NCBI RefSeq assembly: GCF_000812665.2
Contig: NZ_CP014327.1
Coordinates: forward strand, 62,001-126,000
DNA: 64,000 nt
Reading direction: 5' to 3'
DNA from: Falsihalocynthiibacter arcticus
GTDB taxonomy: Bacteria; Pseudomonadota; Alphaproteobacteria; Rhodobacterales; Rhodobacteraceae
Shown: in pieces, positions 12,399 to 17,222 of the stretch
Layout: each line of letters starts with the position of its first letter
Position numbering within the stretch: position 1 is the stretch's first letter
The notes under the pieces: model-generated
Seen by the model: the letters and a program-made list of their open reading frames with translations, nothing else
Told to the model about the DNA's origin: nothing
Databases searched by the model: none
Made by a program: the position numbers and the translations under genes

Positions 12399-14714
12399 AT
12401 GATAAGCGAAAGCAAAATCCTGACCGTATCTTACGGAACCTTCTCTTGCACACTTGAAGGTTTCGACGATTCGTTCTCCACGATGAAGGCCATCGCGGAA
12501 TATTTTAAGACCCTAGCGGCAGAAGACCGTTATTTTGGTGCGGAACCCCCCGCTCCAGACGTGGAAATGCTGGCTCGCATTGCAGAACGTGAAGTTCGCA
12601 GTCGTGTTCAGGCGCAAATTGGCGACAACGGCGTTGTGTTACGCAAAAGTGAGGAAACGGGCGCGCAAAACCCTACATTCACGAAAGAAAGCGCCCCCGT
12701 TTCTGAGACGCCTCAAGCGCATCCCACCGCCCCCCACAACCAAACGGTAAAAATGCCCGCTCCGGTTGCAGTTCAACTCACGCAAAAAACGGCACCTTTT
12801 GTGATGGCAGCAGCAACAGATGGATCAGAATCCGTCGCCGCCAAGCTGCAACGCATTCGTGCGGCTGTATCTCGCGCCCCAACAAACGCTCCGGCAGAAG
12901 TCATCGAAGACGCAAACAGCGAAGACCTTTTCAAGCCAATCGCAAGCGCCTTTCAAGACATTGAAGATGACGCTGAAATCGTCCTCCCTTCTGCGCCTAA
13001 AGTAGCGCCAGTGGCAGACGAGCAAGCGACCCAAGAGTCATTCGAAGACTCGCAAGTCGTTGAAGCAGTATTAGAAATAACAATTGAAGACAACGACGAA
13101 GAGCCGACAGCAGACCTAGTCGAGGACGCCGACATTGTTGTTTCTGATGTCTTCGAAGACACCCTTGAAGACATTCCCGAATTGGCGGTTTCCCTCGAAA
13201 ACGATGCAGAAGAAGAACTTGAATTCACGAAGGAAAATTCAGTCGATGTTTCTGAGCCTGAAGCTGTTTCAATGGATGTTGAATCCACAAGCGACGACGA
13301 TGCGGCAGTGCTTGCAGGTGTTGGTGCTTTCATGGCCCAATCTGAACCTTCTGAAACTGTCGCCAGCATTGATGAATATACCAATGAGCAGGGGGATGAG
13401 CCCCTCGACGCAACGGATATAACGTCCATCTTGGGCACCATATCCCAAGACGATTCGACATCGCATAGTGATGGCGCCATCCAAGAAGACACACACCAAG
13501 ACCAAGAAGACGATACTTTTGAAGGAAGCCTTGAGTCCCGTTTGGAAACAGAAAACGTTTTATCCGAGGCCCAGAGTGACGAAGACCTTGCGGATTTGGC
13601 CAAGCTCGATGCTCCCCAAGACGCGCTTCAAGACGAAGCACCTGATACTGCATCGGTAGAAAGCAGCACAGAAGAATCAATTCGCACGCCAAAAGGCAGC
13701 GTATCCAATGTTCTAGCGCGCGCACGCGCACGCGTCATTCATGTTAAAAAGACTGACTTGGAGCAAGTCTTGGAGGAGGACGCCGTTGAAGAATTCCTCG
13801 ACGTCTCCGCGTCACCTCAAGAGAATGCTTTTACCGACGATGACACCGACGATGCAAATGAAACGGCCGAAGAGTCGATTCTATCGGCGGAAGATGAAGC
13901 AGAATTGATGGCCGAACTTGCGGCTGTAACAAATGAAACACCAGACGACATCCCCACACTTGAACCTCTACCCGAGGTGACTCACTATCATTCGTTGAGC
14001 AAGCAAGCAGACGAAGACAATGTGAACCGCCTCATGGACGAGAGCGATTCGAAGTTTGCCGAGAGCGATGGAACTCGGCGCCGCTCGGCCATCGCGCATC
14101 TTAAAGCGGCGGTTGCAGCAACAGTTGCCGATCGGAGAATTTTGGGCGGTTCGAAACCAAAATCCGACGATACAGGTGCTTACCGTAAAGATTTGGCCGA
14201 AGTTGTTCGTCCGAACCGTGCCGAACGTCGTGCGGGCAGCAGCAAAGATGATCGCCCTGCACCTTTAGTCTTGGTGTCTGAGCAACGCATTGACCTGCAT
14301 GATGGGCCAGCAGTACGGCCACGTCGCGTAGGCAAATCGGCGCTCGAATTGCGAGATGTGAACGAAGATCTGTCGGAAGGCGGACGCGCAAATTCGAAAA
14401 CGGCGAAGCATCTTGAGGAAAGCAAATCCTTCGCGGAATTCGCCGAGCGCGTTGGCGCAATTGAATTGCCAGACTTGCTAGAAGCAGCAGCAGCCTACGC
14501 ATCCTTTGTCGAAGGAAAAGAGCATTTCACACGTCCCGACATCATGCGTCGTGCTTTGCAGTTCGCGGAAGACCAAGGTGTCTCACGCGAAGAAGGCCTG
14601 CGTTCCTTTGGCCTCCTCTTGCGTCAAGGTAAAATCGAAAAAGTAAAACGCGGGCAATTCAAAATCGCGCAGTCGACTCGGTTCAACCCAGAATCACGTA
14701 TCGCTGGCGAGTAG
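12399..14714 (+). CDS. Large acidic protein with conserved ends, function unknown
   Basis: The 771-residue protein has three parts: an ordered N-terminus (about 1-80, with YGTFSCTLEGFDDSFSTMKA and AIAEYFKTLAAEDRYFG), a long low-complexity acidic region (about 150-540) dominated by Asp, Glu, Ser, Thr and Ala, and a basic, ordered C-terminus (about 560-771). The C-terminus includes KSDDTGAYRKDLAEVVRPNR and a winged-helix-like end (FTRPDIMRRALQFAEDQG, then LLLRQGKIEKVKRGQFKI). No transmembrane segment or signal peptide is visible. I recall similar proteins in Rhodobacteraceae without a known role; a chromosome- or scaffold-associated function is only a guess. GAGAGAAAGCGAG precedes the ATG. Confidence 0.8.
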   Translation: MISESKILTVSYGTFSCTLEGFDDSFSTMKAIAEYFKTLAAEDRYFGAEPPAPDVEMLARIAEREVRSRVQAQIGDNGVVLRKSEETGAQNPTFTKESAPVSETPQAHPTAPHNQTVKMPAPVAVQLTQKTAPFVMAAATDGSESVAAKLQRIRAAVSRAPTNAPAEVIEDANSEDLFKPIASAFQDIEDDAEIVLPSAPKVAPVADEQATQESFEDSQVVEAVLEITIEDNDEEPTADLVEDADIVVSDVFEDTLEDIPELAVSLENDAEEELEFTKENSVDVSEPEAVSMDVESTSDDDAAVLAGVGAFMAQSEPSETVASIDEYTNEQGDEPLDATDITSILGTISQDDSTSHSDGAIQEDTHQDQEDDTFEGSLESRLETENVLSEAQSDEDLADLAKLDAPQDALQDEAPDTASVESSTEESIRTPKGSVSNVLARARARVIHVKKTDLEQVLEEDAVEEFLDVSASPQENAFTDDDTDDANETAEESILSAEDEAELMAELAAVTNETPDDIPTLEPLPEVTHYHSLSKQADEDNVNRLMDESDSKFAESDGTRRRSAIAHLKAAVAATVADRRILGGSKPKSDDTGAYRKDLAEVVRPNRAERRAGSSKDDRPAPLVLVSEQRIDLHDGPAVRPRRVGKSALELRDVNEDLSEGGRANSKTAKHLEESKSFAEFAERVGAIELPDLLEAAAAYASFVEGKEHFTRPDIMRRALQFAEDQGVSREEGLRSFGLLLRQGKIEKVKRGQFKIAQSTRFNPESRIAGE

Positions 14715-14732
14715 TATCAGCGTCACAAAACA

Positions 14733-14763
14733 AAAAAAGGCGGCCATTGGGCCGCCTTTTTTG
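14733..14763 (+). terminator. Rho-independent terminator, bidirectional
   Basis: GGCGGCC and GGCCGCC pair around loop ATTG, flanked by A7 on the left and T6 on the right. It terminates the acidic-protein gene and would also stop transcription leaving the IS3 element leftwards. Confidence 0.92.
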
Positions 14764-15195
14764 ATTCTTATACTGCGGCATCTGGACCTGTCGCGCTTTA
14801 GTGCCGCCCCAAGTGCTCGTTTAAGCCACTTTCCGTTCGAAAGCGACGGGACTTTTCCATCCTAGTGCTGAATGGCGCCGTCGCGGATTGTAGAACCCAT
14901 TGATGTATTCAAAAATCGCCATCTCAGCCTGCCTGCGGGTTTCCCAAGTGTCGCGCCAGATCAGTTCAGCTTTGATGGTTTTGAAGAACGTTTCCACTGC
15001 CGCATTATCATAGCAATTCCCTTTGCCACTCATCGATACCTTGAAGCCATGCAGGCGCAGAATCTTCTGGTAATCGTGGGAACAATATTGGCTGCCCCGG
15101 TCCGTGTGATGGAAACAGCCCTTGGGTGGTGCCCGAAAGGCTATTGCCATGTTCAATGCCCGGATGGCCAGATCGCGTTTCATTCGGTTACTAAC

Positions 15196-15233
15196 CACTG
15201 CCCGACAGTCGAAACGCAGTATCGATGAGAGGG
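15196..15233 (+). repeat. Hairpin repeat copy A inside IS3 orfB
   Basis: 38 bp: left arm CACTGCCCGACAG, hairpin TCGAAACGCAGTATCGA, right arm TGAGAGGG. It splits the codons for VVGWA and VSNRMKR; removing it restores GCT-GTT-AGT-AAC without any leftover base. Confidence 0.8.
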
Positions 15234-15399
15234 AGCCCAACCGACCACTCGGCGCGAATGCAGATCCAAGATCACAGCAAGATAGAGCCAGCCTTCTCGC
15301 GTCCAAATATAGGTGATGTCAGCTGCCCACTTCTGGTTTGGTTGCTCAGCGACAAAGTTCCGATCCAGTAAGTTAGGCGCGATGTTGAACTTATGATTG

Positions 15400-15439
15400 C
15401 CTCCTCTCGGGCATACTGCGCATACCCTGCCGGGCAGTG
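15400..15439 (-). repeat. Hairpin repeat copy C inside IS3 orfB
   Basis: 40 bp on the minus strand: CACTGCCCGGCAG, hairpin GGTATGCGCAGTATGCC, CGAGAGGAGG. It lies between the codons for RKHKATTD and NHKFNIAPN. Its hairpin bases differ from copies A and D but still pair. Confidence 0.8.
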
Positions 15440-15497
15440 GTCCGTCGTTGCCTTGTGTTTCCGCGTTCTGATCACTGATATGCCGTTCTGGCGCATC

Positions 15498-15538
15498 CAC
15501 TGACCGGCAGTTGGTTGCAAAGCAATCAATGAGAGGGG
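15498..15538 (+). repeat. Hairpin repeat copy B inside IS3 orfB
   Basis: 41 bp: CACTGACCGGCAG, hairpin TTGGTTGCAAAGCAATCAA, TGAGAGGGG. It lies between GHRRVGR and MRQNGIS. The hairpin arms are completely different from copies A, C and D but pair with one wobble. Confidence 0.78.
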
Positions 15539-15775
15539 AACGGCCGACGCGGCGATGCCCGATGTCCAAACCAACTTCTTTCAGTTCTTCAGTCATGCGC
15601 GGCCTGCCATAGCTGCCAAGACTGAGACGGGATTGTTCTTTGATGTGGGCCAACGTGACCATATCAGACCGCTGCCTGCGACTGGCTGGACGGTTACGGA
15701 ACGCCCGTAAGCCGCGTGCGCTGACATTCATGACATGGCACATACGTCCAATGGAAAATGCAGATTGGTGTTCTT

Positions 15776-15814
15776 CCCCTCTCATCGATACTGCATATCG
15801 ACTGCCGGGCAATG
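15776..15814 (-). repeat. Hairpin repeat copy D at the start of IS3 orfB
   Basis: 39 bp on the minus strand: CATTGCCCGGCAG, hairpin TCGATATGCAGTATCGA (6-bp perfect stem), TGAGAGGGG. It lies between the end of orfA and the first recognisable OrfB residues (EEHQSAFSI). Confidence 0.8.
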
Positions 15815-15828
15815 AATGAACCTAAACC

Positions 15829-16104
15829 TCACGGCTTTTGGCTCGCGAAGAACACCGTGGCCTTTTTTAGGATGTCCCTTTCCTCCTTGAGAATACGGTT
15901 CTCACGTCGAAGCCGGCCATTCTCCTGAGCCAGTCCCAAATCCTCCTTCGACACCACATCCGTGTCTCGGTACGCTGTGATCCATTTGTTCAGCGTCGAC
16001 ACACCGACACCAAGATCATCAGCCACTTGCTTTCGGGTAAGCCCACTGGTCAGTGCGATCCGCACCGCATCTTCCCTAAATTCGTCTGTTCGTTTCAGTC
16101 CCAT
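15829..16104 (-). CDS. IS3 transposase OrfA (helix-turn-helix)
   Basis: The 91-residue protein has a transposase_8-type helix-turn-helix (RTDEFREDAVRIALTSG, then LTRKQVADDLGVGVSTLNKW) and a leucine-zipper-like C-terminus (ENGRLRRENRILKEERDILK). It recognises the IS ends and normally is fused to OrfB by a -1 frameshift. The end KKATVFFASQKP is the usual OrfA C-terminus. The protein looks intact; OrfB does not. Confidence 0.9.
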   Translation of the reverse strand: MGLKRTDEFREDAVRIALTSGLTRKQVADDLGVGVSTLNKWITAYRDTDVVSKEDLGLAQENGRLRRENRILKEERDILKKATVFFASQKP

Positions 16105-16148
16105 GTTCAGTCTCCTTTGTTGCAGTAAATGCTATCAAAGGAGCGGCA

Positions 16149-17222
16149 TCAAACCGTGACAGGTCCATACAGCACAACCCGAACGTTGCGATGTGAGATG
16201 ATGCGGAAGTTATCAGTTACTTGATCTCGAAAGTTGCGCCACTTTTTTGGGACGACCTCTCGCATAAAGTTCAAGATTGGGTTGGCGAAGTGTTTTTGCG
16301 TTGGATAGTGCCGATTATGGGTGACGTGGCTGTGCATGACGGCCCAGAGCCTCTCAATGGGATTGAGATGAGGGCAATAGGGCGGTAGTTGGATCAGGTG
16401 AATGCGACAGTTTTTGCGCGACAGGAACGCTCTGACATTGGGGCCTTTGTGGTATGGGGCATTGTCCCAAATGACGTGAATGATACGTTTGTCAGGGTTT
16501 CTGGCCTCAATTTTGGCGAGAAGCTGAACGGAGCTGACCCCATCGACGGTGGTTGGTTCAACGAAGGGCGCGTCAAAGGTTTCCAGGTTCAGAGCGCCGT
16601 GAATGTTCACGCGCCCAGATGTCGTTTGGATGGCGGGATTTGACCCTTTGCGAGCCCAACCATGGCTGGGTTTGCTTTGATATTCCGGATGAACTGCATC
16701 CGAGAAGTCGACGGCCTCGTCGGCAGGCAAGTTATTCAGTAGGTTCGTATGAAATGCGATGAATGCGGCCTGCTTTTCAACGTCAGCCACACGGGGCAAC
16801 GCCTTTGGTTTGCGATACTCGAACCCCAGGCGGGCCAGAAGCTTGATGCAGCCAGAATGAGAATAGTGGATGTTGAATTTTGCACCCATATAGGCTCTGA
16901 TCTGCGCCGTTGAACGGCAGAACCGTTCCTCAAGCCATTCGCTCAAATCCGCCTCATGAGCAATCGTCATCCGTGACTGCCCGCCTTTCCACCCATCGTA
17001 GGCGACGGCCTCCCAGTCCTCAGCCAAATATTGCTTGTGCCAGCTGCGCACCGTGTCGTCGTCCAGAAACAGAACCTTTGCGATTTGGGCACATGACATC
17101 CCATCATTCAGCAGCGAAAGCGCATTCGCCCGCCGCGCAACCCCGTAATCCTCACGCTGGCGCTTCACGCAGGATAAAAGCTCAAGGCGGTCTGCAGTGG
17201 TAAGAAAATTAGGGCGGATCAT
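16149..17222 (-). CDS. IS630-family transposase, type 1 (complete)
   Basis: The protein has an N-terminal helix-turn-helix (NDGMSCAQIAKVLFLDDDTV, then RSWHKQYL), a second DNA-binding region, and a DDE domain with DFSDAVHPEY, VIWDNAPYHKGPNV and LPPYCPHLNPIERLWAVM carrying the catalytic Asp, Asp and Glu. The reading frame runs beyond the IS end into the neighbouring IS3 terminus (last residues VLYGPVTV), because this copy is not followed by a base that makes the flanking TA a stop codon. It should still be functional. Confidence 0.92.
   Translation of the reverse strand: MIRPNFLTTADRLELLSCVKRQREDYGVARRANALSLLNDGMSCAQIAKVLFLDDDTVRSWHKQYLAEDWEAVAYDGWKGGQSRMTIAHEADLSEWLEERFCRSTAQIRAYMGAKFNIHYSHSGCIKLLARLGFEYRKPKALPRVADVEKQAAFIAFHTNLLNNLPADEAVDFSDAVHPEYQSKPSHGWARKGSNPAIQTTSGRVNIHGALNLETFDAPFVEPTTVDGVSSVQLLAKIEARNPDKRIIHVIWDNAPYHKGPNVRAFLSRKNCRIHLIQLPPYCPHLNPIERLWAVMHSHVTHNRHYPTQKHFANPILNFMREVVPKKWRNFRDQVTDNFRIISHRNVRVVLYGPVTV

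Follow-up and report, generated by a model that had tools for sequence, protein, structure and literature searches.

A short covarying hairpin inserted in transposase genes of Rhodobacteraceae, possibly as a folded strand moved by an enzyme acting in trans

Introduction

An IS3-family element of Falsihalocynthiibacter arcticus carries four copies of a short hairpin within its transposase gene, and the question is whether these copies are part of the element or came from elsewhere, and by what means they could have moved. The element lies in the 64,000-nucleotide stretch analysed here (the window; NZ_CP014327.1, positions 62,001 to 126,000). The origin and movement of short repeats of the CGTC type are at issue, and a 2013 survey found no transposase for them in the part of its text drawn on here (PMC3733652).

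Results

The window IS3 is interrupted by four hairpins

The window IS3 measures 1385 bp and its hairpin-free relatives 1231 bp; the excess is exactly 154 bp (38 + 40 + 38 + 38), and the four gaps in the alignment with those relatives coincide with the four hairpins (Table 1). With the four inserts left out, the element is 1231 bp long and OrfB runs in one frame without a stop or frameshift. The first-pass annotation had likewise put breaks in OrfB homology at the hairpins. The relatives came from roseobacter-group plasmids and were found by blastn against plasmid records; 718 records gave a match to the IS3, and in 53 a single place accounted for at least 80% of the element. Those of Phaeobacter inhibens (L085) and Pseudosulfitobacter pseudonitzschiae (L087) are each 1231 bp long and annotated as one IS3 transposase; that of Pseudorhodobacter turbinis (L086) is free of hairpins across its matching part, has no annotation and differs at its end.

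Alignment with these intact relatives, as the first-pass annotation had proposed, set the insertion points and segment lengths (38, 40, 38 and 38 bp). Hairpin A lies between TAAC and AGCC, hairpin B between GCATC and GAAC, hairpin C between GGAC and GGCA, and hairpin D between TTCATT and GAAG. The first 3' base is G at B and at C, but A in the aligned relatives; at D, the relatives read TTCATC or TTCGTC. All four copies are where the first-pass annotation had put them, with the ends of B, C and D trimmed by the alignment. The arms that it described as shared are less uniform than it supposed: the left arm CACTGCCCGGCAG is exact in copy C only (right arm CGAGAGGAG), and A has GACAG, B TGACC and D CATTG.

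An IS630-like transposase gene (by reading) occupies window positions 16149-17222 on the minus strand, and its 3' end overlaps an inverted repeat of the IS3, which apparently inserted at the end of this gene. A fragment at L001:2265-2543 resembles the same gene.

Table 1. Positions of the window IS3, its four hairpins and other small insert families
Feature	Position	Strand	Remarks
IS3-family element, 1385 bp	14783..16167	-	28-bp imperfect terminal inverted repeats, 14783-14810 / 16140-16167
orfA of IS3	15829..16104	-	no hairpin interruption
orfB (DDE transposase) region	14821..15828	-	start approximate; broken up by all four hairpins
Hairpin A, 38 bp	15196..15233	+	antisense to orfB; stem type TCGAAACG..TATCGA
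Hairpin B, 40 bp	15498..15537	+	antisense to orfB; stem TTGGTTGC/GCAATCAA
Hairpin C, 38 bp	15402..15439	-	sense to orfB; stem GGTAT/ATGCC
Hairpin D, 38 bp	15777..15814	-	sense, close to orfB start; stem TCGATA/TATCGA
Second hairpin family, sites	L071:790-1350; L054:1995-2034; L064:1037-1084; L140:6209-6239		
Further insert families, sites	L140:6126-6176; L169:7776-7821; L196:1743-1791; L206:3391-3435; L088:1626-1669; L184:3666-3714		

The hairpin is a family with a covarying fold

The left arm by itself is weak evidence for a repeat. It has 5 matches at up to 2 mismatches in the window versus 1.7 expected (reached by 1 of 100 shuffles), one of the five is the palindrome read on the opposite strand, and a shorter form is at chance (6 versus 6.5 expected). 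Pairing is more telling: in five copies 97% of stem cells pair, which none of 500 shuffles reaches, the structure having been drawn from the same copies. A covariance model built from five copies (R1) gave 43 matches at E ≤ 10 in the 4.38 Mb F. arcticus genome, its own source copies included. Independent support for the family comes from the many copies in other genomes.

Loci were gathered through model matches and through an exact-arm pattern, which biases the collection towards near-consensus copies. One set contributed its best 150 of 167 matches and a second set all 128, for 278 copies, which became 258 after duplicate removal and 256 with full flanks; curation dropped 20 of 248 for falling short of the arm consensus and left 228. 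The element consists of CRYTG followed by the fold CCC GGCA (stem-loop) GAGA GGG, and 217 of the 228 copies measure 37-41 bp from CRYTG to GAGAGGG. We refer to it below as the CRYTG hairpin.

Stems that vary and still pair, as the first-pass annotation had noted, are borne out by covariation in the 228 copies. Pair a8-r6 is C-G in 217 copies and T-A in 8, a7-r7 is C-G in 222 and G-C in 2, a6-r8 is C-G in 202, A-T in 5 and the mismatch A-G in 12, and a13-r1 pairs in 227. Departures from C-G still pair in 9 of 11 cases at a8-r6, 2 of 6 at a7-r7 and 8 of 26 at a6-r8. Slid controls gave 0-2 of 13-30 in four of six instances, and 10 of 15 and 10 of 23 in the two involving a8; since T-G counts as a pair in the a8 controls, it is the eight T-A copies that carry the case for a8-r6. 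In the apical stem 90% of six positions are paired, with all six paired in 166 of 228 copies, as against 65% (maximum 68%) after shuffling the 3' halves.

The 4x4 internal loop GGCA/GAGA between the helices varies little among the 228 copies, and the near-invariance of loop and arms is partly selected because copies were chosen for arm similarity. We prefer to read the left palindrome CTGCCCGGCAG as the 5' strands of both helices plus the internal loop. Stem types recur, and two common types have a bulged T. The fold is not unusually stable in the four window copies taken in element orientation (z of -0.1 to -1.3).

CRYTG hairpins are widespread in Rhodobacteraceae

The covariance-model search found plentiful copies in related genomes, with matches at E ≤ 0.001 in 149 of 394 Rhodobacteraceae genomes. 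At E ≤ 1e-4, 7 of 385 class-wide genomes matched, four of them Rhodobacteraceae and three from other families. A pattern scan of named genomes returned at least 119 stretches. Rhodobacterales make up nearly all of the 80 titles listed (Puniceibacterium, Leisingera, Sulfitobacter, Octadecabacter, Roseobacter, Ruegeria and others); some come from Cohaesibacter, Labrenzia/Roseibium, Robiginitomaculum and Rhizobium. A few of the titles listed lie outside the alphaproteobacteria, and at least two of these have no real stem (L144, L165). Some pattern-scan matches look like chance, such as L144, L165, L177 and most viral contigs. In named plasmids, three query copies matched 2, 10 and 6 records at E ≤ 0.01.

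Other small insert families were seen (Table 1). A second hairpin family in transposase genes resembles CGCCATTGG...CCAATGGCG and has three copies in one IS3 (L071); further families are of the types GGGAAAACGATCC-ACT-GGATCGTTTTC, GGGGAAACGCCCC-ACT-GGGGCCTTTCC and GGGCAATTGACCC. By eye, most of these further families come after CGTC, CATC or TGTC, and they may obey the same target rule as the CRYTG hairpins.

Empty sites fix the ends, polarity and target of the element

Comparison of occupied with empty sites at 80% identity or more yielded 102 pairs. In 62 pairs, the alignment is gap-free once CRYTG...GAGAGGG is left out, with no target duplication; 37 pairs show a net difference of 1-3 bases, and 40 in all are not gap-free. 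In most pairs, the element sits directly 3' of a YCRTC-like motif that the empty sites already have, with C at -1 in 77% of them. YRTC ends 27 of 95 empty sites versus 54 of 3300 background 4-mers (1.6%; p 2e-23). The last four left-flank bases are CATC in 44, TGTC in 18 and CGTC in 16 of the 228 copies, and the right flank shows little preference beyond G. The empty sites show that the CRTC-like 5' motif belongs to the target DNA rather than to the element.

At +1, 20 of the 62 exact pairs mismatch the empty homologue, at least 14 of them to G; the remaining positions listed have 4-13 mismatches in 62. Part of this G excess may be search selection since +1 is a position of the search model. 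At +2, there are 10 mismatches in 62, within the range of other positions, and 9 of the 10 are to G. One complete genome (G101) has near-identical IS copies of which L253 is occupied and L252 and L254 are empty. In element orientation, the empty copies read CATC and then TTCC, and L253 has a 39-bp hairpin after CATC and then GGCC; the flanks are identical except for TT to GG at the 3' junction. At L202 and L198, the bases adjoining the junction between CC and CGCTG differ from the empty homologue. Together, the 102 pairs (62 exact) and the polymorphism within one genome fix the ends, polarity and target of the element. Hence, the enzyme proposed to move it becomes searchable and testable.

Different stem types occur at one site in 11 of the 30 most populated sites listed, which we read as repeated independent insertion at favoured sites. 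Target tables drawn up per stem type, with the stem considered as an internal guide, gave no clear type-specific target.

Transposase genes hold most of the sites

Clustering of flanks gave 219 distinct sites, which were in turn clustered with hairpins masked because hairpin-encoded peptides otherwise join nearly everything. Each cluster was identified by a Pfam scan of a single representative, and by this count 173-187 of these sites fall in transposase clusters. The upper figure takes all such clusters as transposase, and the lower omits clusters 10, 12, 14 and 33 (14 sites; IS21, IS3 and IS630-like), which were judged by neighbouring ORF or helix-turn-helix matches only. The invaded transposases are of IS3, IS5-like, IS21, IS66, IS256, IS30, IS110, IS91 and IS240/IS6 type, the names beyond Pfam being our reading. 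The Pfam tallies cover 76 of the 88 references in sense orientation and 97 of the 129 in antisense, after removal by hand of repeats and a few near-repeats or chance loci. Among the 184 sites with a coding strand, 82 hairpins are sense and 102 antisense (p 0.16). Not every site is in an IS: L179 lies near a biotin ligase gene, L078 near a glycosyltransferase and L065 near a phage integrase, for example.

The first-pass annotation had called four hits within one IS unusual, which does not hold for this family: an IS21 in L174 has ten hairpins within 2.3 kb, none identical to another, with an eleventh just outside. In other genomes (L054, L057), IS3 copies have hairpins at the positions of A and D too.

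Some hairpins (L045:2027, L051:2026, L069:1503, L077:1503, L157:93) lie within or beside a recurring sequence around GGCCAGCGG or GGCCAGTGG, which may be another repeat. At G064:C364:33661-33745, two oppositely oriented hairpins stand 6 bp apart, like REP dimers. Another genome (G075, L244-L247) has several hairpin-bearing copies of an IS3 related to the window element, and these differ by ~130-bp segments that include the hairpin.

The window IS3 has multiplied with its hairpins in place

The first-pass annotation had treated the window IS3 as a single element; in fact, the F. arcticus genome has six copies of the 1385-bp IS3, 99-100% identical and each with all four hairpins. Only partial matches to a hairpin-free form were found in this genome, and no full-length one. 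Identical 3-bp flanks (gat, aag, cag) bound three of the six copies, and the flanks differ at the other three. Hence, the IS moved with its hairpins in place. Under neutrality, about three non-synonymous changes are expected for each synonymous one. The six copies differ by 12 non-synonymous and 3 synonymous coding changes, with 7 more non-coding and 3 in hairpins; changes common to at least two copies are 8 non-synonymous and 0 synonymous, and in one copy the ATG of orfA reads ATC. These copies thus show no sign of purifying selection. The IS multiplied with its hairpins even as its coding sequence drifted, so we take it that a helper transposase spread the window IS3 once its own function was lost, which is likelier than splicing or bypass. 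The RNA alternative raised by the first-pass annotation fares poorly here on the same lack of visible selection and on the occurrence of hairpins in either orientation (82 sense, 102 antisense).

Other multi-copy sets gave mixed ratios, with frames taken as the longest open segments. In the IS3 copies of genome G123 (L248, L249, L251), orfB has 10 non-synonymous and 22 synonymous changes and the hairpin lies in the apparent orfA; three of the four copies were counted, the fourth matching over too short a stretch. Non-synonymous to synonymous counts are 7:3 in G075 (OrfB-like frame), 3:0 and 2:2 in G101, and 1:2 in G055. Since orfB of G123 is under purifying selection downstream of the hairpin, not every insertion kills its IS, and judging from these substitutions the G123 element is possibly still an active IS.

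Further assignable hairpin sites in the F. arcticus genome, L045, L046 and L051 left out, lie in IS3, IS5, IS30 and IS110-like sequence by our reading of translations. Two transposase domains searched for in this genome gave 47 and 5 matches. Hence, IS DNA is, by this estimate, probably a small part of the genome.

Candidate movers

The first-pass annotation had also pointed to a single-strand-DNA transposase co-occurring with the repeats; no mover was found. The Y1_Tnp domain (Pfam PF01797), searched for in 20 and later in 394 genomes, is absent from the F. arcticus genome and from 124 of the 149 hairpin genomes (present in 25). It occurs in 38 of the 394 family genomes. Hairpins are found in 25 of the 38 Y1-positive genomes versus 124 of the 356 others (p 3e-4), an association that is real, though most carriers lack the domain, and that may only reflect IS-rich genomes. 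At ten Y1 loci, hairpin searches gave one marginal, cut-off match. We found no long, gene-bearing version of the element and no solitary arm in 1.37 Mb of loci or the F. arcticus genome. The 36 left arms without a standard right arm reduce to 8 distinct sequences, seven with an altered right arm and one chance-like.

Discussion

We put at about one half the probability that these hairpins form a short non-autonomous REP-like family of Rhodobacteraceae inserted as a folded strand by an enzyme acting in trans. Fixed ends, mostly exact junctions, a one-sided target, the lack of duplication and the covarying fold fit such insertion. The first-pass suggestion of a miniature structured element moved by an enzyme is strengthened by exact empty sites, hundreds of copies in relatives and stem covariation. 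Neither outcome that the first-pass annotation named as refuting was obtained, since the aligned IS3 relatives lack the segments and further copies are plentiful in other genomes. The element would move as a folded single strand, and a nuclease or strand transferase would recognise the helix and the conserved 4x4 internal loop, cut the target 3' of YCRTC, a motif that the 5' tail may read, and join the strand, which replication would then fix. The tendency of the first one or two target bases on the 3' side to become G would reflect the repair of a short overlap left mismatched at that junction. IS copies would tolerate the inserts because most copies are dispensable, and intact terminal repeats would let a helper transposase copy a hairpin-bearing IS and so spread the hairpins. 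Against this reading, neither an enzyme nor a long, gene-bearing form was found, 40 of 102 pairs are not gap-free, the folds are not unusually stable, and the F. arcticus genome now has no full-length helper copy free of hairpins.

The main rival is template switching during replication: a growing strand whose end reads YCRTC would switch through this short homology to a hairpin at another place, copy it and come back at the G-rich right end. Such a route dispenses with a dedicated enzyme and would owe the fixed ends to the flank in common together with the fold. The flank motif could equally be donor homology, and sloppier copying would account for the 40 of 102 pairs that are not gap-free, for the net gain or loss of 1-3 bases in 37, for first 3' bases that often become G and for the altered bases beside the CC/CGCTG junction at L202 and L198. 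However, 62 of 102 junctions are exact, partial copies were not seen among the 36 left arms without a standard right arm, and template switching does not readily explain why transposase genes are so strongly favoured; we hold it to be unlikely. A Y1 (RAYT/TnpA) HUH transposase as the mover, with the element an ordinary REP or a miniature IS200/IS605 derivative, would suit the insertion 3' of a short motif, the lack of target duplication, the fold and the higher frequency of hairpins in Y1-positive family genomes (25 of 38 versus 124 of 356). Yet just 25 of 149 hairpin genomes have the domain, none of the ten Y1 genes examined is clearly flanked by a hairpin, and the consensus has no GTAG tag, which makes this reading decidedly improbable.

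Removal of the hairpins at expression, by translational bypass or RNA excision, would leave the interrupted transposases active. It accords with the multiplication of the window IS3 with four hairpins and no hairpin-free full-length copy in the genome, with the open OrfB frame once the inserts are left out, and with the purifying selection on the G123 orfB (10 non-synonymous to 22 synonymous). Against it stand the two orientations, both in the window orfB and overall (82 sense, 102 antisense), and the coding changes of the six IS3 copies (12:3, or 8:0 for shared changes, and one orfA ATG changed to ATC); we think it very improbable in general, and for the window IS3 we set bypass and splicing aside on the lack of visible constraint and the mixed orientation. 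That the hairpins are native to this IS3 subgroup and kept by descent has practically no chance of being right. IS3 copies from other genomes (L054, L057) do have hairpins at the A and D positions, but the aligned IS3 relatives lack hairpins and provide empty sites, the family occupies 219 distinct sites, most of them in other IS families or positions, and 11 of the 30 most populated sites listed have different stem types at the same site. Native IS sequence is therefore rejected.

Returning to enzyme-mediated insertion of a folded strand, a bolder form of it, which is possible and which we hold only tentatively, is that the hairpin is a hyperparasite: a single-strand DNA element with a defined structure that has an insertion enzyme and a target rule (3' of YCRTC) of its own and spreads chiefly by settling in the transposase genes of nearly all IS families, which carry it between species. 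The concentration in transposase genes suggests that the hairpins help to wear down, or ride on, the IS of marine bacteria. The CRYTG hairpin may be one of several families under the same target rule.

Comparison with known systems

Rfam gave no family above the gathering cut-off in the window, and at E ≤ 1 none of its 10 matches in 14700-16300 lies over a hairpin, weak matches starting at the terminator at ~14733-14762. A literature search by motif letters and by description, with subscription papers and preprints outside its scope, found no published account of the hairpin family. MITEs of DDE transposons have terminal inverted repeats and a target site duplication; the CRYTG and GAGAGGG ends are not inverted repeats and the exact junctions have no duplication, so this kind was rejected. 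Integron attC sites have RYYYAAC / GTTRRRY core boxes, and an attC cassette was rejected on consensus arms without them.

Elements of the IS200/IS605 family recognise single-strand hairpins and insert 3' of a short fixed motif without target duplication. The CRYTG hairpin is alike in inserting 3' of a short motif without target duplication, and it would share single-strand hairpin recognition. It differs from IS200/IS605 elements and their miniature derivatives (PMC6006769) in its degenerate motif, in the 40 of 102 pairs that are not gap-free, in the lack of a tnpA found beside it and in its size of ~38 bp, with a longer form not seen. Ends matching those of an autonomous element with tnpA were absent from the 1.37 Mb of loci and the F. 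arcticus genome.

Mitochondrial byps are short hairpins inside coding sequences that are bypassed in translation, so that the interrupted gene would be expected to show purifying selection. Non-synonymous to synonymous counts are 12:3 in the window IS3 and 10:22 in the G123 orfB, whose hairpin lies upstream in the apparent orfA, and bypass is not supported for the window IS3. Rickettsia palindromic elements (RPEs), as cited in the portion of PMC3733652 used, are short hairpins inside coding sequences, as here, and mitochondrial double-hairpin elements are likewise short hairpins inserted in other DNA. The CRYTG hairpin is unlike RPEs, byps and double-hairpin elements in hosts and sequence, in lying mainly in transposase genes, in its occurrence in both orientations and in lengths that usually break the frame.

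GTAG REPs have GTAG at one end of the repeat (PMC3733652, same portion). With their RAYT, GTAG REPs and REPINs resemble the CRYTG hairpin in being tiny palindromic non-autonomous mobile DNA, as far as the excerpts of PMC3116915, PMC2817692 and PMC8266576 describe them. Unlike them, the CRYTG hairpin has no GTAG in its 228-copy consensus and is intragenic in IS, and the RAYT domain is absent from the F. arcticus genome and from 124 of 149 carriers.

CGTC-tagged REPs are, by the sections of Di Nocera et al. 2013 (PMC3733652) drawn on here, short palindromic repeats commonest in alpha-proteobacteria, with no dedicated transposase known. In that account, a CGTC, TGTC or CCTC motif lies 5' outside the helix, stems are heterogeneous (8-9 bp from A-T pairs, with a 4-5 nt loop and a CCA tail), and the repeats are mostly intergenic, some inside genes. 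Measured against these sections (PMC3733652), the CRYTG hairpin is similar in size and host group and has a CRTC-like motif on its 5' side, and it is unlike the CGTC-tagged REPs in its CCC/GGG helix, GGCA/GAGA loop, CRYTG tail and GAGAGGG end and in lying mostly in IS genes. Its CRTC-like motif is target DNA, as the empty sites show. If the hyperparasite reading is true, it would explain the origin of CGTC-tagged REPs. We call the CRYTG hairpin a REP-like mobile palindrome whose nearest described kind is the CGTC-tagged REPs, from which their descriptions set it apart.
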